Position numbers and translations under genes: made by a program
Notes under the pieces: model-generated
What the model was told of the DNA's origin: nothing
What the model saw: the letters and a program-made list of their open reading frames with translations, nothing else
The model's database searches: none
Source: Bacilli bacterium
Lineage (GTDB): Bacteria > Bacillota_I > Bacilli_A > RF39 > UBA660
Length of the DNA stretch: 61,540 nt
Assembly: GCA_017404555.1 (NCBI GenBank)
Contig: JAFRCD010000003.1
Span: 1 to 61,540, forward strand
Reading direction: 5' to 3'
Part shown: piece after piece, positions 1-55,508 of the stretch
Position numbering within the stretch: the first letter of the stretch is position 1
Layout of the letters: every line of letters begins with the position of its first letter

Positions 1-647
1 TATTTCTTTTGTTCCTTTTCTAGAGCTTTAGAAGCTTTATTTACTATCATATCTCTATCTATTAATGTTAGTAAAAGTAAGATAAATAGAAGCACAATTA
101 ATACAAGTAAAGTAATAACAATATAATTAGTCTTCTCTACTTTTTTAATAGTTGTATCTAAATACGTATTAGTCATATACTTATCAAAGTTCTTTTCATT
201 TAATTTAACTTTATTATCATTAGGTAAAAAGTTCTTATAATTCTTAAGAGTTAATTCTTTTAACTTGTTACTAATTATCTGCGGATATCCTTTTACAATT
301 AATGGTTTTTGTTTTTCTTTTGTTCTCTCGTAAGAATAATCTATTATTGGTTTATACTTTTTATAATCCTTTTTAGAAATCGCTATTAAATAAGAGCGAT
401 ATACCTTGTTCTTATCTTCTACTATTACAAAATGAATCTGTTTATTATCAATCTTCGCAAAAGCTTCACTCATTTTAGAAATAGTTAGTGATGTCTTATT
501 AGTAGTACTGATAACTTTATCCCAAGCAACTTCTTTTTTATCACTCATATATAATTTATAAGCTGAGAAGAATAAAATTCCCATTACCAGCAAATAAACT
601 ATACAGAAGAATATCTTTGTATATAAACGTAATTTCTTTTTTGGCAT
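1..647 (-). CDS. Membrane protein of unknown function, cut by the window edge
   Basis: I translated this frame by hand; it is open from an ATG at 647 to base 1, so at least 215 codons are present and the C-terminus is missing. The product has a short basic N-terminus (MPKKKLRLYTK), a membrane segment at about residues 11-30, an extracytoplasmic stretch of about 140 residues rich in Lys and Tyr, and a second membrane segment at about 172-193 (ITLLVLIVLLFILLLLTLI), followed by a charged, probably helical region (KASKALEKEQKK). Two membrane spans around an external domain, then a cytoplasmic tail, resembles a sensor or an envelope assembly protein, but I recognise no domain. The upstream GGTGGTGGT is a weak ribosome site. 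Function unknown. Confidence 0.75.
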   Translation of the reverse strand, partial: MPKKKLRLYTKIFFCIVYLLVMGILFFSAYKLYMSDKKEVAWDKVISTTNKTSLTISKMSEAFAKIDNKQIHFVIVEDKNKVYRSYLIAISKKDYKKYKPIIDYSYERTKEKQKPLIVKGYPQIISNKLKELTLKNYKNFLPNDNKVKLNEKNFDKYMTNTYLDTTIKKVEKTNYIVITLLVLIVLLFILLLLTLIDRDMIVNKASKALEKEQKK

Positions 648-11807: not shown

Positions 11808-11837
11808 TAATAAAAAAGACTAGGAAACCTAGTCTAA
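11808..11837 (-). terminator. Terminator of the first BspA-type gene
   Basis: Inverted repeat AGACTAGG/CCTAGTCT with a three-base loop (about 11816-11834), then TTTTTTATTATT on the minus strand. The TAG stop lies in the stem. The second BspA-type gene has nearly the same hairpin at 51534-51552. Confidence 0.9.
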
Positions 11838-14800
11838 TTTTAATCTCTTACGTACACAAACAATACCAAAAGTAATAAGAACTCCTAATACGACTAATAA
11901 TATATATGGCGCTAAGATAGAACTTATACCAGTATCTACACTGATGTCATAAGTATTCTTATAAGTGATTCTTTCATTATGAGTAACAGTTTTAGTAATA
12001 GTCCTACTATTAGTATCATTTACTGTTGTTGTATATGGTGTTTCAGAATCCTGAGTCACAGTTATACTATAACCTTCAGGTAGAGATAACACTTCAGATT
12101 CATCATTTGCTAATGTGAAAGTTCCACTTAATGCTGTATCTACCACATCATTTTCATCTCTTACTTCTACACTATAAGTAAAGTCTTTACTTATACTAGC
12201 CATATTTCCATATATTTCATTAGTAATAGTAATATTATAACTTGATTTTACACAGCTTCCTTTTACGACATTACTACTAGATGATTTAGTTGCAATAATT
12301 CTATCTATATTAGTTGTTTTATCACAATTATAGATAACCGTTACTTGAGCTCCTGTAGCAGTAGCAGTATTAGTAAAAGTACTACCATAAGTTGTTGGAT
12401 TGCCCAATATTGGGAAAGTCCCAGAGGCATTAGTACAACCACTAAACATACTAGACATATCAGTAACACTGGAAGTGTTCCATGCACTTGCACCATCTAC
12501 ATCAGCAAGGGCACTATCGCCATTAAACATATTTGACATGTTGCTTACTCCTGAAACATCCCATTCTTCTAAAGCATCTATATTTGTTAAGGACGAACAA
12601 TTTCTAAACATACTGGATGCATTATTTAAATCCGAACTATCCACTGAACTTAATCCACTTATATCAGTTAATCCTTGGAAATTATAGAACATATTTGAGG
12701 AATTAAGATTTAAATATACATCGCTATCTTCGCTATAATAATACATTGTTCCATCACTATCATCGAAATAAATATATATTGGATATTCTGAAGTGCTTAG
12801 CGATACTGTATTCTCTGTTGAAGGTGTGAACCCACTTGGTAATGAATTGGCCTTTTTAATAGCATGAATTGCTGTATCAACAGAGCTATAAGTCATAGAA
12901 GATGAATTGTTAGCTAAGTTCTTCATCTTAACATTTACATTTTGACCTGTATCAAACATAGTTCTAAGATTAGAACAACCTCCTTTTACAACATGGCTAT
13001 TAGATGATTTAGTTGCAATTATATTATCTATATTGGTTGTGACTGTACAATCATATATTACTGTTATTTGGGAATCTGATGCAGTAGCAGCACTAAAAAA
13101 TGCAGCCGAAGTTGAAGTCGGTCTACCTAATATTGGGAAAGTTCCACTTGCTTTACCAGAGTCAGCGAATATATATGTAATATCTGTTACACTTGAGGTA
13201 TCCCAATTTGAAGCTCCATCTATATTAACTAATGAGCTACACTCAGAAAGCATACGACCCATATCTGTTACACTGGAGGTATCCCAATTTGCTGCTCCAT
13301 CTATATTGGCTAATAGAGAACAATGCCAAAACATCAAACCCATATCTGTTACCCTGGAAGTATCCCAATTTGCTGCTCCATCTATATTGGCTAATCTATA
13401 ACTGCTTCTAAACATTTCTGACATAGATGTTACACTGGAAGTATCCCAATTCGCTGCTCCATCTATATTAACCAAACTACTGCAACTTATAAACATTTGT
13501 CCCATATCTGTTACGTTTGAAGTGTCCCAAGATGATAAGGCATCAATATTTGATATTTTACAATCAGAAAACATTCCGCCCATTATAGTTACCTTAGAGG
13601 TATCCCAATTTGATACTCCATCGATATCTACTAGGGATGTGCACTCTGCAAATGTTCCGTTCATACTTGTTACACTTGAGGTGTCCCAATCTGTTAAAGC
13701 ATCTATATCTTCTATTGCGCAGTTTCTAAACATTCCGCCCATATTCGTTACGTTTGAGGCATCCATGTCACTAAGACCACTTATATCCGTTAGGGTTTGC
13801 ATTCTTGAAAACATGCTTGAAGAATCACTATTTAAACGCAATTTAGCTGCTTCAGTATAATAATACATAGTTCCGTCTGTATCATCAAAATAAATATATA
13901 CTGGGTATGCTGATGCGCTTGTTGAGATAGTATTAGCTGTTGATGGTGTAAAGTCACTTGGTAGTGAGTTTGATCTTTTTATTGCCGTAATAGCGTAATC
14001 ACTAGAACCTGAAGACGTTGATGTGCCATTAGCTAAAGTTTTCATCTTAGAATTTACAGTTTGTCCATTAAGCAAATCAGCAGGTTCTGTTGTACAAGCT
14101 CCTTTTACAACATTAGAACCAGCCGTTTTTGTAGCAATAATAGCATCTATATTTGTTGTTTTTACACAATCATACACTACCGTTATTTGAGCACCGGAAT
14201 CCTTTGCAGCCCCACTAAAGGCACTCGAATATGTAGTAGGATTACCTAATATTGGAAAGGTACCACTAGCCTTTTTACAACCACTAAATATATTTTCAAT
14301 ACTTGTTACACTGGAGGTGTCCCAATCAGCAGCTCCATCTATATCCTCTAAGGAACTACAATCACGAAACATGTAGGTCATATTAGTTACACCAGAAGTA
14401 TCCCAATCACTTAAAGCATCTATATCTTCTAATAGGTCACAATTATAAAACACATACCCCATATTGGTTACGTTTGAAGTATCCCAATTACTAGCTCCAT
14501 CTATATCCTCTAAATTAAAACAATCAGTAAACAGCCAGGATATGTTCGTTACACTTGAGGTGTCCCAATTACTAGCTCCATTTATATTGGTTAAATTTCT
14601 ACAACCTGAGAACATTCCAGACATACTTGTTACACTTGAGGTGTCCCAATTATTTAAAGCACCTATATTTGTTAGAGAACTGCAACCAGCAAACATCCCA
14701 GACATACTTGTTACACTGGAGATATCCCAATTGCTAGCCCCATCTATATCACCTAGTGAACTACAGTTTTGGAACATATAAGACATGGTTGTTACGCTGG

Positions 14801-17636
14801 AAGTATCCCAATTGCTTAATGCATTGATATTTGTCAAGGAAGAATTGGAAAACATATTAGACATATCAGTCACACCGGATGTATCCCAGCCTGATAAAGC
14901 ATTGATATTTACTAAATCATCACAATGAAGAAACATATTGCTCATATCTGTTACATTTGATGTATCCACAGCACTAAGACCACTTATATCAGTTAATTCA
15001 GTAAAGTTGTCAAACATATATGAGGAATCACCATTTAAATAAACAATATCAGCTTCACTATAATAGTACATTGTTCCATCTGTATCATCAAAGAAAATAT
15101 ATATTGGATATTGTGAACTATAACTATTTAATGATACTGTGTTTTCAGTTGATGGTGTAAACCCGGTTGGTAGAGCATTGGCTTTTTTAATAGCATGAAT
15201 TGTTGTATCAGCAGTACTATATCCCATCGAAGATGAATTGTTAGCTAGTTTCTTCATCTTTGCATTTACATTCGTTCCATAGTCAAAATTAGCTGTTGTT
15301 AGCTGCCTATAGGTAACCGTAATAGTGTGATCACCTGTTACATTAGTAAAGGTATAACTATTAGCATATGTACTTGTGCTTACTGCTACTCCATCTACTT
15401 CTATACTATCTAATACACATGAACTATCTGTTGGGCTATAACTAATTGTCTTGCTTGATCCAAATTCTACTTCAGATGTCGATGTAATAGTTCCGTTGGT
15501 TACACTTGTTGTTATAGTAGGTTTCCAATATACCACGGATATAGTATGATTATCAGTTATATTAGTAAATGTATAACTATTGGCATAGGTACTAAGACTG
15601 ACATCTACACCATCTACTTTTATACTCTTTAATTGATAACCGCTATTTGGACTATAATTTATAGTTTTATTGCTACCAGATTCTACTCTAGATGATTCTG
15701 TTATAGTTCCGTTGGTTACACTTGTTTTAATTTTTGGCCTTGGGTCAGTAACAACTACATATGGATCACTTGTACTTCCATCACCACCACTATAAGTAGT
15801 TCCCTCCTCCAGAGAAATCACTGGTCGAATACCAATTGAACTATTACTAGTTGAGAGGGAACCAGATGTATTAATCATACGTATTGAAGGGGTACTGCTC
15901 GATAGATAATAAGGCGACATAAGATAATAAGCTTGTCCTGTATTACGAGCAGTATTATTGCCTAATAGATTCATCTCTGAATATGTGGCAAGTCCCACCG
16001 GATATGCTAATTTTGCTTTAGTATTACCAACCGCAAATTGATCAGTAACATTATTACATTTTAAAACAGTATTGCTACTATAATCTTTAAATTGGAATGA
16101 TGTTGATAAACTTCCTCCGTTTGGATTCCACCCATTACTTGAAGCGTTTCCCTCAGTTCTATCATTACAATAAATAGCATCTTCTAAGTAATTGGTATAA
16201 TTATTCATGTTTTGTGCATACCAAGCATCTATTACTCCCTTAATGGCTGAATTATATCTATTAACATCATTTGCATATAGCATCTCATTTTTCATATCAG
16301 TTATTGTCTTGCTTCCACCTGTTAAAGTTACGTAGTAAGCAGTAGAAGAAGATTTATAATAAATATATTTCAATTCTGAACAGGTATCACTAGTTGACAA
16401 ACAAGTGTAGTGGTTATTAGATAAATCATCACTACCTTCAGCTTTTATGGTATTTTGTAATATATAGTTTCCATTCTCATATCTAAAACTATTACCAAAG
16501 ACATATCGATTATCGGTTGCTTGTCCTGTTTGGGTTCCTAAACTAAAGACTACATTATCATTTCCTGATGCTTGTGATCCATCTTTACTGTATTTTACTT
16601 GAATAACATTACTTGTTGTTAAGTTTTCTAAGACTATACTTCCACTTTTACTTCCACTATCATTTTTTAGCTCTGTTCCATCTTTATAGAAGTATGCTTT
16701 ATCATAATTTGCTTCGCTTGATACAGTATAATTTAATACATAAGTACCCGCTGTTTTAACCTTGAATTTAATTGAAGCGCTTGTACTATCGACTTTCATA
16801 GTACTTTCCCATGTCTTATTAGTAGAATCCCATGTAAACGGATAAGTAGCATCATTTTCTGTTACATCATAATCTGATTGCTCAAATGGTGTTGTTTGTA
16901 TTTCATACGTTCCCCATGAACTAACACTTGATGAATCACTTTTATATACAGTGTTAAACATATATCCTGCTTTAGCAAGAGTACCAATACTACCATGATT
17001 AAAAATACTCGTACCTATCTGAGAATAATGAGTATCCCCTATTGTGTAACTTGATGTATAAGCTTGGGTGTTAGTGTAGTAGCTATTGACATTATAGATA
17101 GTTGTACAGGTGTTAGATGTTGATGCACAAGTATATTTACCTATTAAATTAGTATATGTTGAATCGCTCCATGTAGCAGTAATTGGATTAGTTAAGGTAA
17201 ATTCTCCTGTTGATTCATCATAAGTGAAACTATTACTATATTTATAAGCACCACCAGATAAAGTCTTATTCGTCCTACTTGCACCTGTTATACCTTTATG
17301 ATTTCCTCTTGATGTATTACATTTGTTGGTAGAATCATAAGGACCATTATAAATCATCTTTACTCCACCAGTATCAGTGGTTCTTAATATTTGCCAACAA
17401 GTATCACCTAGTTTTGCATTATTGTGATTGACTGCATCACTACCTGCAAAATAATGAATTGTTTCTGTTCCAGAATTATCTAAACTGTCTTGATGTTGTC
17501 CGTTATAAGCTGCAGTTAATGAATCTGCTGCAACAGCATCATATAAACTATTAGTGTTATCTGCACGCGAAAAAACTAGGAATGTTCCTATTACTAATAT
17601 AGATATAATTAAATACAGACCTTTTCGTTTATTCAT
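11829..17636 (-). CDS. Giant BspA-type (DUF285 repeat) surface protein, paralogue 1
   Basis: I choose ATG 17636 (1,935 aa), six bases after AGAGG; an ATG at 17642 abuts it. Domains in order: signal peptide/anchor (GLYLIISILVIGTFLVFS); an N-terminal domain starting with KLGDTCWQILRTTDTGG and ending IGIRPVISL (about 75-630; the ending resembles DUF6273/FISUMP domains); two divergent InlB-B-like repeats (about 635-780); then three cassettes, each with a header (VNAKMKKLANNSSSM ... FFDDTDGTMYYYSEA), a run of about 26-residue DUF285 repeats (core WDTSSVTDMSxMF) and a cap (SGTFPILGNPTT ... NIDAIIATK). I count 9, 8 and 3 repeats. A Spy0128-like module (about 1800-1905) and a membrane anchor with basic tail (VRKRLKLD) end the protein. 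BspA proteins bind host or bacterial surfaces; the ligand here is unknown. Confidence 0.9.
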   Translation of the reverse strand: MNKRKGLYLIISILVIGTFLVFSRADNTNSLYDAVAADSLTAAYNGQHQDSLDNSGTETIHYFAGSDAVNHNNAKLGDTCWQILRTTDTGGVKMIYNGPYDSTNKCNTSRGNHKGITGASRTNKTLSGGAYKYSNSFTYDESTGEFTLTNPITATWSDSTYTNLIGKYTCASTSNTCTTIYNVNSYYTNTQAYTSSYTIGDTHYSQIGTSIFNHGSIGTLAKAGYMFNTVYKSDSSSVSSWGTYEIQTTPFEQSDYDVTENDATYPFTWDSTNKTWESTMKVDSTSASIKFKVKTAGTYVLNYTVSSEANYDKAYFYKDGTELKNDSGSKSGSIVLENLTTSNVIQVKYSKDGSQASGNDNVVFSLGTQTGQATDNRYVFGNSFRYENGNYILQNTIKAEGSDDLSNNHYTCLSTSDTCSELKYIYYKSSSTAYYVTLTGGSKTITDMKNEMLYANDVNRYNSAIKGVIDAWYAQNMNNYTNYLEDAIYCNDRTEGNASSNGWNPNGGSLSTSFQFKDYSSNTVLKCNNVTDQFAVGNTKAKLAYPVGLATYSEMNLLGNNTARNTGQAYYLMSPYYLSSSTPSIRMINTSGSLSTSNSSIGIRPVISLEEGTTYSGGDGSTSDPYVVVTDPRPKIKTSVTNGTITESSRVESGSNKTINYSPNSGYQLKSIKVDGVDVSLSTYANSYTFTNITDNHTISVVYWKPTITTSVTNGTITSTSEVEFGSSKTISYSPTDSSCVLDSIEVDGVAVSTSTYANSYTFTNVTGDHTITVTYRQLTTANFDYGTNVNAKMKKLANNSSSMGYSTADTTIHAIKKANALPTGFTPSTENTVSLNSYSSQYPIYIFFDDTDGTMYYYSEADIVYLNGDSSYMFDNFTELTDISGLSAVDTSNVTDMSNMFLHCDDLVNINALSGWDTSGVTDMSNMFSNSSLTNINALSNWDTSSVTTMSYMFQNCSSLGDIDGASNWDISSVTSMSGMFAGCSSLTNIGALNNWDTSSVTSMSGMFSGCRNLTNINGASNWDTSSVTNISWLFTDCFNLEDIDGASNWDTSNVTNMGYVFYNCDLLEDIDALSDWDTSGVTNMTYMFRDCSSLEDIDGAADWDTSSVTSIENIFSGCKKASGTFPILGNPTTYSSAFSGAAKDSGAQITVVYDCVKTTNIDAIIATKTAGSNVVKGACTTEPADLLNGQTVNSKMKTLANGTSTSSGSSDYAITAIKRSNSLPSDFTPSTANTISTSASAYPVYIYFDDTDGTMYYYTEAAKLRLNSDSSSMFSRMQTLTDISGLSDMDASNVTNMGGMFRNCAIEDIDALTDWDTSSVTSMNGTFAECTSLVDIDGVSNWDTSKVTIMGGMFSDCKISNIDALSSWDTSNVTDMGQMFISCSSLVNIDGAANWDTSSVTSMSEMFRSSYRLANIDGAANWDTSRVTDMGLMFWHCSLLANIDGAANWDTSSVTDMGRMLSECSSLVNIDGASNWDTSSVTDITYIFADSGKASGTFPILGRPTSTSAAFFSAATASDSQITVIYDCTVTTNIDNIIATKSSNSHVVKGGCSNLRTMFDTGQNVNVKMKNLANNSSSMTYSSVDTAIHAIKKANSLPSGFTPSTENTVSLSTSEYPIYIYFDDSDGTMYYYSEDSDVYLNLNSSNMFYNFQGLTDISGLSSVDSSDLNNASSMFRNCSSLTNIDALEEWDVSGVSNMSNMFNGDSALADVDGASAWNTSSVTDMSSMFSGCTNASGTFPILGNPTTYGSTFTNTATATGAQVTVIYNCDKTTNIDRIIATKSSSSNVVKGSCVKSSYNITITNEIYGNMASISKDFTYSVEVRDENDVVDTALSGTFTLANDESEVLSLPEGYSITVTQDSETPYTTTVNDTNSRTITKTVTHNERITYKNTYDISVDTGISSILAPYILLVVLGVLITFGIVCVRKRLKLD
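12430..14990 (-). repeat. Coding tandem repeats of about 78-81 bp (DUF285)
   Basis: The DNA is an irregular tandem array with units of about 78-81 bases, each encoding one BspA-type leucine-rich repeat (core WDTSxVTxMSxMF). It comes in three runs (near 14280-14990, 13150-13800, 12430-12660) separated by cassette header and cap sequences. Such arrays can recombine to change repeat number. Confidence 0.85.
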
Positions 17637-17661
17637 ATGCATCCTCTACTATATAATTATC

Positions 17662-20221: not shown

Positions 20222-23200
20222 TTAAACATCATTCTTAGTTACAAAATGATGATTAGATACAAGAACCCATATGTATAATCCACCTAATATAAGTATAACC
20301 CCTAGGAATTTCAATACTATACTAGCAAAACTAGCAGTATCTGGAACATCACTCAAGGTTAGTGGATTTTCATATCGTCCTCTATTACCTTTATTATTGC
20401 TGTCATTTTCTTTATCATCAGGAATAACCTCATCTTCTTCAGTTGGATCAACAACATCAACATTAGTATTTGTAAATGATGATATATCATCTTTAAAAGC
20501 AAGACTATATGTCAAATCATCATTTACTGTAATAGTAACTTCAATAATTTGATCATCAATATACCAATTATCAGATTCAACCTCATTCTGTTTTACCTGA
20601 TAAGTATATTCACCTGGAGCCAATAATAATGTTTTAAATGCATAACCCATACTTTCACTAGCAACTGTTTCAATTGGAATATTATTTTCAAATAAAGTTG
20701 CTTGCATATTTAAATCTTTAATATCACCGCTATTAGAAAACATATTAATATTTACAGGAACATTAACAAAAGGATCATTAGGTGCCTCTGTTGGAGTATA
20801 ATTATTGTTAAAACTATTAGAATCATATCTAACATTATAACTTAAAGCACCATTATTATCTGTAACATCAATAGTAGCTGTTATAGTTTTATCGTCTAAA
20901 TCTTGTACTAAATTGTTCTCTGTTTTATGATATGGCTGTTGTTGATATAATTTATAAGTATATGTACCTGTATCATCAACACTTACAGAAGATTTATACT
21001 TTGATTCTTCATTTTCCATAGTATTAAGAACTTTATCATTAGTAGCTAAAACAGCTCTTGATTTAATAGGCTCTTCTCCCTGATAATTATCTATTATGCT
21101 TACTTCTAGCGGCACATCAACAGCTGTATAGTGAGCAATTATTTTGTTATTAAACTCTGTACTATCATAAGTAATATTATGTTTTAATTTGCCACCTTCA
21201 GCAAAGACACTTATATGGACATTTATTTCACTATCATCCATATTTATTTCATAGGTGTCATTAATATGACTAGTGTAACCCTCTTGTTTAATCTGATAAT
21301 CATATTCTCCTTCTGTTAAAAATTCAACAGGTGTAAATGTATACTTATTGCTTGCACTATTTACTGTTTCTATTTTTTCTTTATCTCTATAAATAGAAGC
21401 CCTAGTAACAGGAATATTTATATTAGGATTAGGAGCATCATTAACAATATTCACTTCTATTGGAACAGCAATAGCATCAAAGCCCTTCATATAGTAGTTT
21501 TCAAAAGTACTATCACCATATCTGAATGATTTTCGATATTTTAAAACATTGTCTTCCTCATAAACTTCAACATTGACTATCTTACTGTCGCCATCAATCG
21601 TATAAGAATAAGTTGGTTCTTTATGAATACCAGGATTGTTTTGTCTAATAGAATAAATATATGTTCCTGCCTTTGCTATTTGAACACTGAAATCATATTT
21701 TTCATTAGCACTAGTTACTGTCTGTAGTTTATTATCACCTTGATAAATAGCAGCACTAGTCTCAGCAACTGAAAGGCTTTCATTATCCTTAATATTATCA
21801 ATGGTTAAACTTATAGGTACTGAAATCGGATCATAGTTTTGAGTAATACTATTTTCAAAGACATTTGCTGAATAACTAATATCAAGCCATAGTCTTCCTT
21901 CTCCTTCAGTAGCAGTAACATGTACTTCTATTTCTTTACTATCATAATAGTAATCTATATTACCAATAGTTTCCTTACCGTTTTTATCTTGTTTTATTGT
22001 ATAAACATATTCTCCCGGTGATGTTATTTCAATATCATTAAAGGTATACTTTCTACTCCTACTATTAGCTTGCGCTAAAGAAGCATTATTTCTATATAAA
22101 GTGGCACTTGATACAGGTGTTTCAATTTCACTATTAGAAACCGAAGTATTTATCTGAACAGAGAAATTAATACTTTCCGAAGTACTCACTTCATTATTAA
22201 ACTGTGCTGAAGTAGGATTAATAGTATACTGCAGAGTACCATTATTATCAGTAACCTCTATAGTATAAGTTATTCTTTTATCATCGATATCATACATATA
22301 CTCATCATTATCAAGATTCTTCTGAGTAATTATATATTTATATACCCCTGGTTCATTAGTTCTAAAAGTATAGTTATAATATTCTCCTTCATTAGATATA
22401 TTCTCTTCGTTACCGCCTATTACCACTGTAGCCTGCGTATTAGGTGTAGGAATAGTATCTAGACTCTTAATAGTAACGATTTTAGTATGAATAGGAATAT
22501 TAATATTATCATAGCTATAAGATACTTTATTAGTAAAAGTATTGCTTGATAAACTATAAGTACTAACAAGATTATTATTCTCAACTGTAGCTACTATCGT
22601 TAATGTAATCGTCTTATCATCTAATTCATATGAATAATTTCCATTACCAGTTATACTTGTATCTTGAGCAATTGTATATCTATAAGTACCTGGTTCTGTA
22701 ACTTTAATATTAAAAGTATATTTATCAGAAGCATTACTCTTAGTTTCAATTACAACTCCGCTCTTATAAAGAGTAGCACTTGTATTAGGAGTAACACTAG
22801 TTTGATGCTTATCCGTTTTAATATTGATTTCCACTTTATTATTAACTTCCGGGAAGTCAGCTGATACCTTGTTTGTAAAGGTACTCTTACTATATTTAAC
22901 TGAACATTCAAGGCCTGACGCACTCTTAGTTGCTGTAATTGTAGCTGTTATATTAGAACTATCAATATCAGTAGTAATATTACCACTAGTTGTTTGACCA
23001 CTATTATCTTGTTTTATCGTATACGTATATGTTCCTTCTTGACTAATTTGAACATCACTAAAGCTATACTTGTTCTCCGATGCGGAAACAGTACCCACTT
23101 TTTGATTATCTTTATATAAAGAAGCGCTTGTGCTTGGAGTATCCAAACCACTATATGTTTTAGTAGTTTGAACATTTACTGAAAGAGGAACACTGACAGC

Positions 23201-24601
23201 ACTATAATTATAGGTGTTAGTAAATGTATTGTCTCCATTAGCAAAAGTAGTAGACGAAATTAAGTTGTTCGTCGCCAAACTATACTCCACCGCAACAGTA
23301 GCTTTTTTAGTTGATTGATCAAAAGTCCAATTAGGAGCTGTTTTAGAAGCCTGCTTAATATTAAATGTATAATTACCTATTGTTGTTGAAGCAGGACCAG
23401 AATAAGAATACTTATTATTAACAGCTGTAACAGTTTTATTAGTAGAAGGCGATGATGATGTAATAGTAGCCTGCATTCCTAAGTTATCAAAACCAGTTTG
23501 ATTATTTGTAGATACCTTAGTAACTATTGAAGCTTTAGGGTCTTTAGCAGTAAAGTCTGGTGTTAAAACCCAAGCAGAATATGAAGAATTCTGTGTATAT
23601 GCATTAGTATTTTTATTCTTTTTGCCCGGATTATGGAACAAAATCCAAGGACGATAAGCTCTTCCAGATTCAGTATTTAATTCAACACTTTCAGTTTCAC
23701 CTGGAACCTCAATAATGTCACCACTAGTAGTAAAATCAGAGCCAGGTAATATTTTCCATCCCTTAACATACTCATAACTACTAGAGCTTTTATAATCTCC
23801 TCCCATATAATGGAAAACATATATCCTACCATCTCTTGTATCTTTTCCATTACTTTGTGCTCCAATATTACTAGACTGATAAAGGTATCCTTTAGCCGCT
23901 GAGCAACCACCTGTAGCACCAGAAAGAGTTGTCCCAAAAACATCAACAGTACACTTTGCATCACTAATTTCTCCATCACAAACTGTATATTTAAATACGC
24001 CGCTTCTTTTTCCGCCTAAATAGAATCTTTTTAAAGAAGCATCATAAGCCATAGAAACATACTGTTTAGTCAAGGTGTTTGTTTGATCAAGTTTTTTTAT
24101 CCTCTTACGCTTCCATTTTTTACTATCTAAACTGCTAGCATCTATGTATACAACTCTGTATATAGGATCGTCATTATCATCATAAATATAATATAAAATA
24201 GCTATCTCGTTCGTATCTTTTATGTATGTCATATCATTTCCATGACTATACCTTAGGGCCCGTGTTGATTCTGTACCACTACTAGTTGTATAAGTCTCTT
24301 TTTCAGTTGAAAAGTACTTTACCCATGTACCACTACTATTTCTTTTAAAGACATGAATAATACCTTCATAATTATCAGCATTTTTATTATTTGCATAAAT
24401 AGCTAAGTATTTCCCAGTAAAAACCATCGATTGATGCCCCCAATTACTTATTGGATAATCTTTCTTAGAAATATTTAATCCTGAAATTTTATGAACCTTA
24501 AGATCTTCGACAACAGCATTAGCAGTAATAGCCTTCCCTAAAATTATTAGAAAAGTCCCTGAAATTATCAATAAAACAAGTAATAGTTTGGGTTGTTTCA
24601 T
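20222..24601 (-). CDS. Giant surface protein with nine tandem Spy0128/FctA-like modules
   Basis: I choose ATG 24601 (1,459 aa) with GGAG eight bases upstream; an in-frame start at 24664 lies in the promoter. After a signal peptide (LLLVLLIISGTFLIILG) comes a domain of about 340 residues with beta-propeller-like phrases (HQSMVFTGKYLAIYANN, LRYSHGNDMTYI), unassigned. From about residue 370 to 1377 there are nine modules of about 110 aa: an opening strand of the type VPLSVNV, a middle part with SATLYKDNxxV, the strand pair GTYTYTIKQ, and a closing strand FTNxV/FNNxV. A Glu/Asp-rich spacer, VPDTASFAS, a membrane span (about 1425-1447) and a short tail end it. In pilin Spy0128 the residue aligned with this Gln is the catalytic Glu of the Lys-Asn isopeptide bond. 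Probably a stalk-like adhesin. Confidence 0.88.
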   Translation of the reverse strand: MKQPKLLLVLLIISGTFLIILGKAITANAVVEDLKVHKISGLNISKKDYPISNWGHQSMVFTGKYLAIYANNKNADNYEGIIHVFKRNSSGTWVKYFSTEKETYTTSSGTESTRALRYSHGNDMTYIKDTNEIAILYYIYDDNDDPIYRVVYIDASSLDSKKWKRKRIKKLDQTNTLTKQYVSMAYDASLKRFYLGGKRSGVFKYTVCDGEISDAKCTVDVFGTTLSGATGGCSAAKGYLYQSSNIGAQSNGKDTRDGRIYVFHYMGGDYKSSSSYEYVKGWKILPGSDFTTSGDIIEVPGETESVELNTESGRAYRPWILFHNPGKKNKNTNAYTQNSSYSAWVLTPDFTAKDPKASIVTKVSTNNQTGFDNLGMQATITSSSPSTNKTVTAVNNKYSYSGPASTTIGNYTFNIKQASKTAPNWTFDQSTKKATVAVEYSLATNNLISSTTFANGDNTFTNTYNYSAVSVPLSVNVQTTKTYSGLDTPSTSASLYKDNQKVGTVSASENKYSFSDVQISQEGTYTYTIKQDNSGQTTSGNITTDIDSSNITATITATKSASGLECSVKYSKSTFTNKVSADFPEVNNKVEINIKTDKHQTSVTPNTSATLYKSGVVIETKSNASDKYTFNIKVTEPGTYRYTIAQDTSITGNGNYSYELDDKTITLTIVATVENNNLVSTYSLSSNTFTNKVSYSYDNINIPIHTKIVTIKSLDTIPTPNTQATVVIGGNEENISNEGEYYNYTFRTNEPGVYKYIITQKNLDNDEYMYDIDDKRITYTIEVTDNNGTLQYTINPTSAQFNNEVSTSESINFSVQINTSVSNSEIETPVSSATLYRNNASLAQANSRSRKYTFNDIEITSPGEYVYTIKQDKNGKETIGNIDYYYDSKEIEVHVTATEGEGRLWLDISYSANVFENSITQNYDPISVPISLTIDNIKDNESLSVAETSAAIYQGDNKLQTVTSANEKYDFSVQIAKAGTYIYSIRQNNPGIHKEPTYSYTIDGDSKIVNVEVYEEDNVLKYRKSFRYGDSTFENYYMKGFDAIAVPIEVNIVNDAPNPNINIPVTRASIYRDKEKIETVNSASNKYTFTPVEFLTEGEYDYQIKQEGYTSHINDTYEINMDDSEINVHISVFAEGGKLKHNITYDSTEFNNKIIAHYTAVDVPLEVSIIDNYQGEEPIKSRAVLATNDKVLNTMENEESKYKSSVSVDDTGTYTYKLYQQQPYHKTENNLVQDLDDKTITATIDVTDNNGALSYNVRYDSNSFNNNYTPTEAPNDPFVNVPVNINMFSNSGDIKDLNMQATLFENNIPIETVASESMGYAFKTLLLAPGEYTYQVKQNEVESDNWYIDDQIIEVTITVNDDLTYSLAFKDDISSFTNTNVDVVDPTEEDEVIPDDKENDSNNKGNRGRYENPLTLSDVPDTASFASIVLKFLGVILILGGLYIWVLVSNHHFVTKNDV

Positions 24602-24617
24602 ACTACATTCTCCTTTT

Positions 24618-24665
24618 ACAATATCGCCCATTATCCTAATAACATTATAACACCTATTAATCATA
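24618..24665 (-). promoter_or_regulatory. Promoter of the giant nine-module surface protein gene
   Basis: On the minus strand TTGCTT, a 17-base spacer (ending AATAGGTGT) and TATAAT, lying just downstream of the phosphoketolase terminator's T-run. The leader is then about 40 bases. Confidence 0.7.
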
Positions 24666-24669
24666 TAAG

Positions 24670-24700
24670 CAAAAAAACAAACAATTAGTTTGTTTTTTTA
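24670..24700 (-). terminator. Terminator of the phosphoketolase gene
   Basis: ACAAAC/GTTTGT inverted repeat with flanking A- and T-runs (24671-24699), reading into TTTTTTT on the minus strand, directly after the xfp stop codon. Confidence 0.8.
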
Positions 24701-30253: not shown

Positions 30254-30279
30254 AAAAAAGAAGCTCTTTAAGCTTCTTC
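30250..30279 (-). terminator. Terminator of the 30268-31218 surface protein gene
   Basis: AAGAAGCT/AGCTTCTT stem (30258-30265 with 30271-30278), five-base loop, then TTTTTTTG on the minus strand. Confidence 0.88.
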
Positions 30280-31218
30280 TTTAGGTTTAATAAAGATATA
30301 TATTCCTCCAGTTATTAATAATAGTGCCCCAGATAATAGTAATATACTTATATTTTTATTAGTATCCGGAACTTTTACTTTTTCTCCAGGTGCTGTTACT
30401 GTTTTCTTGGTTGTTGTTGTAGTACTTGTACTACTATTATCTCTACCACTACTATTTGAATTATCAGCAGCAACTTGGGCTAAAACACCATCTATATCAT
30501 CAAGATTGTGAATTATAAAACGATGTCCTGATTTAGGATTAACGAGTGTTGAATCAGAAAACTCTACCTTCTCTTCATTAGACAAAACAACATAATCTTG
30601 AACCGCTAACATATCAGTATCCGTTCCTTCGATTTTTCCTGTCTTAAAGTAAATTTCATCATTTTCCTTACCATAAGCAGCAGCTCCAACATTTTGGGAA
30701 ACACTTTGATTTAATGATATCCTAGTGTCTATTGTTGCTTCTTCACTTGGATTTGAAAAACTATCAATAAAAAGTTTCATATAGTCAAAGAAATTTACAT
30801 AGTGAATATAATTATAACCCTCTGGTATTTCCGTTATTTTATAATCTAATGTTACTAAAACTAAATACTGTTTATTATTATCCTCAATTGTAGGAATTTC
30901 TGCTCTAACTAATTCTTCCACACTAATGTCAGAAAGAGTATAATTAACTTTTACCCCTGTTGCGGAAGTATGTCCAGTAGGAACATTAATTTCACTAGCT
31001 ACTGGATTAATTGTTATTTTATCAGCAGGAATACTAATTGTTTTATAAACTGTATTAGTACGGATTCCTTCTTCATCCAAAATCTTAATGGACATTCCTT
31101 CTATAGTATATTTAATCCCATTAGCCTCATAATTCTGTGGAAACTCAGCAGCAGATACATTTAAAACTGAAACAACAAGCATGACTATAACTAGTATTAA
31201 ACTTTTAATTAATTTCAT
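30268..31218 (-). CDS. Secreted, C-terminally anchored surface protein
   Basis: The 316-aa product has a signal peptide with a good cleavage site (LVVSVLNVSA/AEFPQN), an extracellular region of about 230 residues that I cannot assign (beta-rich; phrases INVPTGHTSATGVKVNY and DTRISLNQSVSQNVG), a Ser/Thr linker (SSTSTTTTTKKT) and a C-terminal anchor: VPDTNKNIS, hydrophobic segment (LLLSGALLLITGGIYIFI), tail KPKEEA. The anchor resembles a sortase signal but has TN where LPxTG has TG. GGAGAG precedes the ATG. The 1,459-aa protein at 20222-24601 carries VPDTASFAS in the same place. Confidence 0.82.
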   Translation of the reverse strand: MKLIKSLILVIVMLVVSVLNVSAAEFPQNYEANGIKYTIEGMSIKILDEEGIRTNTVYKTISIPADKITINPVASEINVPTGHTSATGVKVNYTLSDISVEELVRAEIPTIEDNNKQYLVLVTLDYKITEIPEGYNYIHYVNFFDYMKLFIDSFSNPSEEATIDTRISLNQSVSQNVGAAAYGKENDEIYFKTGKIEGTDTDMLAVQDYVVLSNEEKVEFSDSTLVNPKSGHRFIIHNLDDIDGVLAQVAADNSNSSGRDNSSTSTTTTTKKTVTAPGEKVKVPDTNKNISILLLSGALLLITGGIYIFIKPKEEA

Positions 31219-51519: not shown

Positions 51520-51553
51520 ATATCAAAGAAAAAAGACTAGAAAATCTAGTCTA
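51520..51553 (-). terminator. Terminator of the second BspA-type gene
   Basis: AGACTAGA/TCTAGTCT stem (51534-51541 with 51545-51552), then TTTTTTCTTTG on the minus strand. Nearly the same hairpin ends the first BspA-type gene. Confidence 0.9.
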
Positions 51554-54500
51554 ATTCCAGTTTCTTACTTACATGGCTAATGCCCAAAAGAGTAAGGATA
51601 CTTAGTAAGAGTAAAACTATATATGGAGGTATTATTGTCTTAACACCGGTATCTACACTTACATTATAAGTATTCTTATAAGTAATAGTTTCATCGTCAG
51701 TAACAGTCTTAGTAATAGTTCTACTGTTAGTATTATTCACAGTGGTTGTATAGGCAGTTTCTTCTTGTGTAACAGAAATCTCATATCCCCCTGGAATTGT
51801 CAAAACTTCAGATTCATCATTTTTTAAAGTAAAGGTTGTACCCAAAGAAGGAACTATTGTATCGTTATCATCGCGTACCACCACCGTATAACTAAACTCT
51901 TTGTTTATATTTGCCATATTACCATATATCTCGTTAGCTATAGTAATATCGACATCTGGTAGAGTACAACTACTAGCCTTTGCTACATTTGAAGCAGATG
52001 ATTTAGTTGCTACTATAGCATCAATATTAGTTGTTATATCACACATATACTTAACAGTTACTTGTGTCCCTGATTTAGTAGCAGTACCATAAAAAGCACT
52101 TGTATATGATGATGGATTGCCCAATAATTGAATAGTTCCCGATGCATTTGAACAACGGTAAAACATATCCTCTATATCTATTAGCAATGAAGTATCCCAA
52201 TTAGAAAGAACACTTATATCTGTTAAAGAATCACAATCGTAAAACATGTAAGATGTATCGGTTGTATACGAAGCATCTACCAAACTAAGCCCGCTTATAT
52301 CTTCCAATGACGTTAATTCTTCAAACATCTCTGATGAATTAGAGTGTAAATATATCTTTTCGGCTTCACTGTAGTAATACATTGTTCCATCTGTATCATC
52401 AAAGAAAATATATATTGGATATTCAGACCCACTTGCAGATACAGTATTTAATGATGTAGGAGTAAAGTCATTAGGAAGAGTGCTAGCTCTCTTAAAACTA
52501 ACTATTTTTGTATCTTCATCTTCTTCATCCATCGAAGTAGAATTATTAGCTACATTCTTCAACGCTTTATTTATCGTCAATCCTGTAGTAAAACTCGTCC
52601 GTGCATTAGCACATGAACCTTTGACAACATTAGAATTAGATGACTTCGTTGCTACTATGTTATCAATTCTACTTGTTCCTATACAATCATAAACAACTGT
52701 TATTTCAGCATCTGTTGCAGTAGCAGCATTGGTAAATGCACTTGTATATGATGATGGATTACCTAATATTGGGAAACTTCCCGATGCATTTGTACATCCG
52801 TTAAGTATGTAAGAAATATTATTTACTTGTGTGGTGTTCCATGAACTTGCACCATTAATATCAGATAAAGCTGTACAATTTCTAAACATATAAGACATAT
52901 TTGTTACCTTAGATGTATCCCAGTCACTGGCTCCATCTATATCACCTAGCGAACTACAGTTTTGGAACATATAAGACATGTTTGTTACCTTAGATGTATC
53001 TACCGAACTAAGGCCACTTGCATCAGTCAATCCCTGAAAATTATAAAACATATATGATGAATCACTATTCAAATATAACGTTTCCGCATCACTATAATAA
53101 TATATTGTTCCATCGCTATCATCAAAAAAGATATATATAGGTTCTTCTGATAATGGATTTGATATTTTATTATCAGATGTAGGTGTGAATCCACTTGGTA
53201 ATGCAGTAGCCCTTTTAATTGAATGTATCGCCGTATCAGATGAACTATAAGTCATTGAACTGGAATTATTAGCTAGTTTTTTCATCTTAGCATTGACATT
53301 TTGCCCTGTATCAAAAGTGGCCACTGGGGATACATATCTCACTTTGATAGTATGATCTGATGTAATATTATTAAATGTATAACTATTACTGTACTCATTT
53401 ATATCCACATTAACACCATCTACCTCAATACTTTTTAAAGTGCAACCACTATTAGGACTATAGTTGATAGTTTTACTACTTCCCGAATTAACATGTGTTA
53501 TTTCAGTTATAGTTCCATTTGTAACTTTAGTTACTATTTTAGGTCTTGTATCCGTATTAGTATATATCACATAAGGATCATACATACTTCCATCACCGTC
53601 TACATATTCAATCCCTGATTTTAGTGAGACCACTGGCCGAACACCAATGAAGCTTCCATCAGCACCAGTATAATCGAGCGCTCCAGAAGTATTAACATAA
53701 TTAGTAAGTGCTTGATTATAGGGGCTAGAATGTGGAGATGCTAGCCAGTACTTATCTCCTGCTTTTGCAGCATTAGCATTATCTATCAAAGCTATTTCTG
53801 GAACCGTTGCCAAGCCAATCGGATATTTGTTTTTTGCTTTAGTATTACCAACTGCAAATTGATCAAGGACATTATCACACTTTAAAACCGTATTGCTAGT
53901 ATAATCTTTAAATTGCAATTTGGTATCACTATGTACATTACCGCTTGGATTCCACCCATTGGTTGATGCATTAATTTGAGTTCTATCATTACAATATATA
54001 GCATCTTCTAAAAAGTCTGTATAATCCGTCATGTTCTGAGCATACCATCCTTCTATTTGTCCTTTGATAGCCGAGTTGTATTTATTAACATCGCTACTAT
54101 AGAGCATTTCATTTAATAAATCAGTTGCCCTTTTTCCGTTTGTTAAATAAATCCCTGCAAGAGTTGTTGAATCACCGTCAAGAACATGAAAAACGCTTTC
54201 ACACGAATTACCAGAAGTACCACAGGTATAGTGGTGAGTGGAATCTGGCCTTGGAATACTGGAAACACCAGTTAAAGTATATACCCCATTTGAATATGTT
54301 ACTCCACTACCAAATTTATATGTTATAGGTAAATAATATATACGGCTTGGACCAACATCTGTTATATACCCCATATTTGAACACGAAGTAGTAGTTGTAT
54401 TCCCATAACAAAAATACTTTTCCTCCAAATTGCTAAAATTATTAATATAAGTTGTCGTTCTAATGGTTGTAGGGTTTGTTAAAGCATTACCGCTATGACT

Positions 54501-55508
54501 AGTCGCATATGAATAATACTTATTAACACCACTTGTAGTTAATAATTTTCCACCAGTCAAAGTAATATAATATAAATATTGAGATACTTTTCCTGTAATA
54601 TAATATGCCGTTGTACCTGTCGCAGCAGCCGTCGTTTTTCTAACGGTGTATTTACCTATTAAAGCGTTTGCTGAGGTTTGTGTTGCTGCCCCAGTTAATC
54701 TATATGTCGAGCCATAATTCAAACCAGTACCATAGTAGTATGCCAAAGAAAAATAATTTTGAGTTCCTTCATCTAAAACTTTTGTAACGTCCATAGCATC
54801 GCTTGAATATTCATATGCAGTATTAAACATATATCCAACCATAGCAATAGAAGATTGGTAGGCAGAAAAACCTCCTTCACCAATCTGAGAATATTCGGTA
54901 TCTCCTATTTCATAATCATGAATATAAGCAGTTGTGCTATCTTTATAACCACCAACATAATTTAAAACAGTACATGTATTTGTTGCTGAAGCACACGTAT
55001 ATTTGCCTAGTAAATTTTTGTATGTACTATCACTCCAGGTAGCAGTAGTTGGATTAGTTAAAGTAAACACCCCTGTATCCTCATCATAGGTAAAACTATC
55101 ACCATATTGATAAGCGGAGTTTAAAGCCTTTGTGACGTAATAATTATATATCATTCCTTTGTGAGTTCCCCTCGACTTATTGCACCTGTTAGTTTCATCA
55201 TATTTACCATTATAAATCATCTTAACTCCACCAGTATCAGTAGTTCTTAAAATTTGCCAACAAGTATCTCCTAGTTTAACATTATTACGATTTACTATAT
55301 CATCACTACCTGTAAAATAGTATATTGTTTTTGTTCCTGTACCGCTTAAACTATCTTGATGTTGACCATTATAAGTTGCAGTTAAAGAATCTGCTGCTAC
55401 AGCATCATATAATTTATTACTTGGCTCATTTTCTGCACGCGAAAAAACTAGGAATACTCCTATTACTAATATAGATACAATTAAGTATAGATTTCTTCGT
55501 CTATGCAT
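51546..55508 (-). CDS. BspA-type (DUF285 repeat) surface protein, paralogue 2
   Basis: The 1,320-aa product is a paralogue of the protein at 11829-17636. Signal/anchor (NLYLIVSILVIGVFLVFS), N-terminal domain (about 75-640; KLGDTCWQILRTTDTGG to IGVRPVVSL) with an insertion absent from paralogue 1 (about 215-440), one InlB-B-like repeat (about 645-725) instead of two, then two cassettes (about 730-965 and 968-1180) with 3 and 2 DUF285 repeats against 9, 8 and 3. A Spy0128-like module (about 1183-1285; YEISVTQEETAYTT) and an anchor (VDTGVKTIIPPYIVLLLLS, tail VSKKLELD) end it. GGAG lies seven bases before the ATG. Likely an adhesin; ligand unknown. Confidence 0.9.
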   Translation of the reverse strand: MHRRRNLYLIVSILVIGVFLVFSRAENEPSNKLYDAVAADSLTATYNGQHQDSLSGTGTKTIYYFTGSDDIVNRNNVKLGDTCWQILRTTDTGGVKMIYNGKYDETNRCNKSRGTHKGMIYNYYVTKALNSAYQYGDSFTYDEDTGVFTLTNPTTATWSDSTYKNLLGKYTCASATNTCTVLNYVGGYKDSTTAYIHDYEIGDTEYSQIGEGGFSAYQSSIAMVGYMFNTAYEYSSDAMDVTKVLDEGTQNYFSLAYYYGTGLNYGSTYRLTGAATQTSANALIGKYTVRKTTAAATGTTAYYITGKVSQYLYYITLTGGKLLTTSGVNKYYSYATSHSGNALTNPTTIRTTTYINNFSNLEEKYFCYGNTTTTSCSNMGYITDVGPSRIYYLPITYKFGSGVTYSNGVYTLTGVSSIPRPDSTHHYTCGTSGNSCESVFHVLDGDSTTLAGIYLTNGKRATDLLNEMLYSSDVNKYNSAIKGQIEGWYAQNMTDYTDFLEDAIYCNDRTQINASTNGWNPSGNVHSDTKLQFKDYTSNTVLKCDNVLDQFAVGNTKAKNKYPIGLATVPEIALIDNANAAKAGDKYWLASPHSSPYNQALTNYVNTSGALDYTGADGSFIGVRPVVSLKSGIEYVDGDGSMYDPYVIYTNTDTRPKIVTKVTNGTITEITHVNSGSSKTINYSPNSGCTLKSIEVDGVNVDINEYSNSYTFNNITSDHTIKVRYVSPVATFDTGQNVNAKMKKLANNSSSMTYSSSDTAIHSIKRATALPSGFTPTSDNKISNPLSEEPIYIFFDDSDGTIYYYSDAETLYLNSDSSYMFYNFQGLTDASGLSSVDTSKVTNMSYMFQNCSSLGDIDGASDWDTSKVTNMSYMFRNCTALSDINGASSWNTTQVNNISYILNGCTNASGSFPILGNPSSYTSAFTNAATATDAEITVVYDCIGTSRIDNIVATKSSNSNVVKGSCANARTSFTTGLTINKALKNVANNSTSMDEEDEDTKIVSFKRASTLPNDFTPTSLNTVSASGSEYPIYIFFDDTDGTMYYYSEAEKIYLHSNSSEMFEELTSLEDISGLSLVDASYTTDTSYMFYDCDSLTDISVLSNWDTSLLIDIEDMFYRCSNASGTIQLLGNPSSYTSAFYGTATKSGTQVTVKYMCDITTNIDAIVATKSSASNVAKASSCTLPDVDITIANEIYGNMANINKEFSYTVVVRDDNDTIVPSLGTTFTLKNDESEVLTIPGGYEISVTQEETAYTTTVNNTNSRTITKTVTDDETITYKNTYNVSVDTGVKTIIPPYIVLLLLSILTLLGISHVSKKLELD

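Follow-up and report, generated by a model that had tools for sequence, protein, structure and literature searches.

Isopeptide bond chemistry involves a Lys, an Asn, and a catalytic Glu (PMC5311914), whereas ester-bond domains carry a Thr on the first strand and a Gln on the last, together with buried acids (PMC10619420). Native FctB has Gln67 at the place of the catalytic Glu and was crystallised without an isopeptide bond (PMC5311914); an FctA-type domain that lacks the bond and naturally carries Gln there is thus already known. In the window (the whole stretch of 61,540 nucleotides analysed here), one gene encodes a protein with nine tandem modules of this type. In our judgement, this is very probably a secreted, anchored protein with a nine-module FctA/FctB-family stalk, in which the isopeptide reaction would be missing and Gln and Asn would form a non-covalent clamp.

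The gene is an open reading frame of 1480 amino acids on the minus strand (20222..24664). The true translation start is probably Met22 at 24601, which is a better start than 24664 because this internal ATG comes after AAAAGGAG, with AAGGAG directly 5' of it; the sequence-only reading had ended the gene at 24601, and this position holds as the likely start. Between a phosphoketolase-like gene and the nine-module gene, an inverted repeat at 24671..24700 (AAAAAAACAAAC..GTTTGTTTTTTT) resembles an intrinsic terminator. The protein is laid out as follows.

24515..24601 (-): putative signal peptide, residues 22-50, with the hydrophobic stretch LLLVLLIISGTFLIILG
23540..24514 (-): N-terminal region, residues 51-375, orphan
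23207..23539 (-): module 1, residues 376-486, NYTFNIKQ ... FTN, the copy diverging most, Thr at the Lys place
22862..23206 (-): module 2, residues 487-601, the modelled copy; Val498 is equivalent to Lys, Gln552 to Glu, closing Asn598
22520..22861 (-): module 3, residues 602-715, GTYRYTIAQ ... FTN, Ile at the Lys place
22184..22519 (-): module 4, residues 716-827, GVYKYIITQ ... FNN, Ile at the Lys place
21842..22183 (-): module 5, residues 828-941, GEYVYTIKQ ... FEN, Ile at the Lys place, top PF12892 stretch
21488..21841 (-): module 6, residues 942-1059, GTYIYSIRQ ... FEN, Ile at the Lys place
21137..21487 (-): module 7, residues 1060-1176, GEYDYQIKQ ... FNN, Ile at the Lys place
20795..21136 (-): module 8, residues 1177-1290, GTYTYKLYQ ... 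FNN, Ile at the Lys place
20450..20794 (-): module 9, residues 1291-1405, GEYTYQVKQ ... FTN, Met at the Lys place
20225..20449 (-): linker, VPDTA sorting-like motif, transmembrane helix, and short tail, residues 1406-1480, read from the sequence

The N-terminal region (residues 51-375) is presumed to be an exposed head. A Pfam search with it gave zero matches, no relatives were found in 291 genomes of the family, and its single-sequence AF2 model (pLDDT 39) was too poor to read. Relatives of the whole protein were sought in the genome contigs and close relatives of the nine-module protein in 386 genomes of the family, and none was found in either. At the other end of the protein, the tail gave a weak, sub-threshold match to EF0750_LPXTG. 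A second surface protein in the window, 30268..31218 (-), has a C-terminal VPDTN followed by a helix, and its tail matched EF0750_LPXTG and IsdC, both below threshold. The two proteins thus have a VPDT(A/N) sorting-like motif in common, and the genome holds five sortase genes, all on other contigs, with none in the window; it is therefore plausible that a sortase reading this motif anchors the nine-module protein at the surface. For a genome of 0.94 Mb, the window carries many surface proteins. Two further ones, 11829..17642 (-) and 51546..55508 (-), are large DUF285/PARCEL-repeat proteins, the latter with a DUF7601-like domain adjoining its C-terminal helix.

The protein matched PF12892 (FctA) of Pfam in nine stretches (E 1.3e-40), with a score of 139.3 bits against a curated cut-off of 22.1, and NCBIfam TIGR03786 likewise in nine stretches (E 2.7e-34). 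Judged from these profile matches, the nine modules are genuine relatives of FctA/Spy0128-type domains. A phmmer search of the PDB with the whole protein gave zero matches, and a profile was needed to obtain PDB matches; the module alignment was rejected as a pattern-search query because the copies were too divergent. Pairwise identity among the modules averages 27% (range 17-38%), and no more than seven columns of the alignment have the same residue in every copy (Y, G, Y, Q, L, F, N). Strand E of modules 2-9 fits G.Y.Y.[IVL].Q, that of module 1 reads NYTFNIKQ, and the strand ends, from module 1 to module 9, in IKQ, IKQ, IAQ, ITQ, IKQ, IRQ, IKQ, LYQ, and VKQ. The catalytic Glu or Asp on this strand is thus absent from all nine, with Gln instead, while the Asn or Asp that an isopeptide-forming FctA domain carries on strand G is present as the Asn of an F.N motif in every copy. 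Both observations agree with the sequence-only reading, which had described nine FctA-like modules with an invariant Gln and a closing Asn. Gln makes up 3.4% of module residues, and the invariant one is encoded by both CAA and CAG; given also the mean identity of 27%, its invariance is due neither to recent duplication nor to chance.

We modelled module 2 with AlphaFold2, using the other modules and 15 domains of related loci elsewhere as the input alignment, and obtained a model with a pLDDT of 97.1 and a pTM of 0.87. Its strand 58-66 ends at Gln66, and Asn112 lies within the last strand, 109-115. The top folds in VIA-align were those of FctB (5ttd, Z 12.4; 3klq, Z 12.2; 8k6t, Z 11.9), with alignments covering about 108 of 116 residues, and next came Spy0128 (3b2m_B, Z 9.4, 108 residues, rmsd 3.2 Å), showing a CnaB-type fold; Foldseek ranked FctB and then Spy0128 in the same order. 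An EMC subunit and other unrelated entries with Z about 8 were regarded as instances of a common sandwich fold.

The VIA-align ranges placed model residues 5..116 on Spy0128 29..172, 2..116 on Streptococcus oralis PitB 42..217, 4..116 on GG-SpaA 39..176, and 1..116 on FctB 2..121 (target numbering from PMC5311914, PMC12617251, and PMC4923907). Accordingly, Val at model residue 12 falls on Spy0128 Lys36, PitB Lys52, GG-SpaA Lys47, and FctB Asn13, an equivalence that rests on the range ends and assumes a gap-free strand A, and Asn at model residue 112 falls on Spy0128 Asn168, PitB Asn213, GG-SpaA Asn172, and FctB Pro117. The column of residue 12 is T in module 1 and runs V/I/I/I/I/I/I/M across modules 2-9, so that, by the structural ranges and the alignment, Lys is absent from the Spy0128 Lys36 position in all nine. 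Two other registers were considered and rejected: in the MAFFT alignment the Lys column came out at model residue 14 (T/T/T/T/N/N/D/S), and a blind sequence locator put it at residue 16 of module 2, which is a Lys, whereas the structural ranges against four proteins all give residue 12, and this register was used. Four residues past the column of residue 12, where strand A ends, modules 2, 3, 4, and 6 have a Lys and the other five do not. A plain-sequence profile match aligned the module strand GTYTYTIKQ with FctB GQYTYRVYQ, placing Gln at the Glu place, and the corresponding stretch of an engineered FctB reads GQYTYRVYE. The module Gln is at the position of Spy0128 Glu117, and the module Asn is at that of Asn168. 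The earlier claims that the Gln stands at the Spy0128 Glu place and that the opening strand has no conserved Lys are therefore upheld, the former by the profile alignment with FctB and the structural ranges, the latter at the structurally equivalent position. Of the results that the sequence-only reading would have taken as refuting, a conserved Lys or Glu at another core position was not found, nor was any sign of a displaced Gln.

FctA-type domains of other genomes were collected by a family search and a related-locus search; they were located with a profile from which the window protein had been left out, at least 60 upstream residues were required, and strand A was found with a locator blind to the position of Lys. 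Among about 146 domains from outside the window, the catalytic place held Glu in 137, Gln in seven, Met in one, and Lys in one. The nine non-Glu domains come from eight genomes (Gln in L035, L042 twice, L017, L057, L061, and L079; Met in L068; Lys in L019), and an "Ala" domain of L076 was excluded as a misalignment around an insertion. Of the 137 Glu domains, 103 had the A-strand Lys, whereas all nine others lacked it (Fisher p 9e-6, an optimistic value because domains within one protein are not independent); by eye the true number of Glu domains with Lys exceeds 103, since the locator put strand A in the wrong place in several. The closing Asn is retained in seven of the nine non-Glu domains. 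In L079 (VDVTLDG for xxKxLxG) and in the last domain of L035, the change from Lys to Val accompanies that from Glu to Gln without gaps. Other modules of the L035 and L042 proteins retain both Lys and Glu, indicating that the two residues were lost together inside one protein. The Gln replacement is therefore not unprecedented, since it occurs in FctB and, in every case found together with loss of Lys, in other FctA-type domains.

Two of the surveyed proteins have further features. The last FctA module of L035 (at about position 795 of a 2059-aa frame) has many Cys, unlike the numerous Lys/Glu modules before it, and it is possible that disulfides substitute there for the isopeptide bond. A same-family relative, L019 / L067 7156..8208 (-), consists of an unassigned N-terminal part, cut by the contig edge, and a single module whose catalytic Glu is replaced by Lys (YTIKK), and it ends in NPQTG and a transmembrane helix. 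The converse association is looser, as some Glu domains have no Lys, including those of four pilin-like FctA proteins of the source genome (42100..43344 (-) in the window, L002, L003, and L004). In these four, Arg appears to replace the strand-A Lys (VTIERTI, VTIDRTI, ATISRTV) and the strand-E Glu is kept; the motifs suggest that an Arg-Glu salt bridge perhaps substitutes for the isopeptide bond. The second, C-terminal domains of L003 and L004 apparently keep Lys (HIELTKKVKG), Glu, and the closing Asn, and the genome therefore seems to hold domains able to form the bond alongside others that are not.

Because Lys and Glu are both gone, an isopeptide bond is not expected in the nine modules, which most likely serve as ordinary spacers without cross-links, a type known from FctB. 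In the mechanism we propose, a secreted protein anchored to the wall or membrane would consist of the N-terminal region, nine CnaB-fold modules, and a sorting-signal-like tail. The nucleophilic Lys of strand A has given way to a hydrophobic residue, according to the structural alignment ranges, and the catalytic Glu of strand E to Gln, with the acceptor Asn of strand G retained. Loss of Lys would leave a buried carboxylate without a partner, which would be costly, and its neutral isostere Gln would be favoured for this reason. A hydrogen bond between the Gln and Asn amides probably spans the two sheets, so that the pair may act as a non-covalent clamp in domains otherwise held by ordinary packing alone.

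The earlier suggestion that the modules gave up isopeptide chemistry while Gln is still selected is supported as the most likely one, with Gln at the Glu117 place, Asn at the Asn168 place, and no Lys at the Lys36 place. The alternative that Gln was not selected and merely descends from one isopeptide-free ancestral module is quite unlikely: all nine copies do sit in one protein of one genome, with no close relative in 386 family genomes, yet Gln stayed invariant, with both codons in use, in copies diverged to 17-38% identity, and it is combined with Lys loss in other genomes too. Slightly less unlikely is a role of Gln and Asn in surface contacts, between modules or with a ligand, instead of in the core. 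Interface residues can be conserved in tandem repeats, but these two lie where Spy0128 has the core residues Glu117 and Asn168, and single-domain FctB, which has no neighbouring module, has Gln at the corresponding place.

A different intramolecular bond, either a Lys-Asn isopeptide through the strand-A-end Lys or an ester of the Thr-Gln type, is very improbable. It could account for an Asn kept in all nine modules though no chemistry would otherwise require it, and the end-of-strand Lys of modules 2, 3, 4, and 6, which the sequence-only locator chose in module 2, might serve as the nucleophile. This Lys is missing from five modules, however, and therefore does not explain a Gln present in all nine; an ester is disfavoured by the module Gln lying on strand E and the Asn on the last strand, where ester domains have a Thr on the first and a Gln on the last (PMC10619420). 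Cys accounts for about 0.1% of module residues, and the site has no acid able to catalyse a bond. The substitute bond offered as a second option by the sequence-only reading thus found no support in a conserved strand-A-end Lys, in Cys, or in an ester-type residue layout. Least likely of all would be an undescribed covalent link requiring the strand-E Gln and strand-G Asn, perhaps with the strand-A-end Lys where it is present.

With non-cross-linked spacers as the preferred reading, the database labels "isopeptide containing" and "isopeptide linkage" stand against a reactive set that is missing from all nine modules here, from FctB, and from domains of eight other genomes. Lys and Glu go together, and Asn is mostly retained. 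Loss of Lys with Glu changed to Gln would serve as a sequence rule for the absence of the bond, sorting cross-linked from non-cross-linked stalks, and the modules offer natural material for comparing the contribution of a presumably buried Gln-Asn pair to stability with that of the covalent bond.

Among known systems, the Thr-Gln ester-bond stalk domains (Cpe0147, TQ) resemble the protein in being a tandem Ig-like stalk of a Gram-positive-type surface protein. They differ in their reactive Thr/Gln pair and buried acids, which the modules do not have; the last strand of the modules bears F.N, and their Gln is on another strand, strand E. The Spy0128/FctA backbone pilin (PDB 3B2M) shares the fold, the family, and the positions of the strand E and G motifs, but it has Lys36 and Glu117 and forms the Lys-Asn bond, whereas the modules have Val or Ile for Lys and Gln for Glu. 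The minor or basal pilin FctB of Streptococcus pyogenes (PDB 3KLQ, 8K6T) is the best structural match of the modules and also a strong profile match, with the same FctA-type CnaB fold, no isopeptide Lys, and Gln67 at the catalytic Glu place. In FctB, the Lys place is occupied by Asn and the Asn place by Pro, where the modules have a hydrophobic residue and Asn, and FctB is the single-domain base of a pilus, unlike the nine tandem modules and orphan N-terminal region found here. These results describe a situation close to that of FctB repeated nine times.
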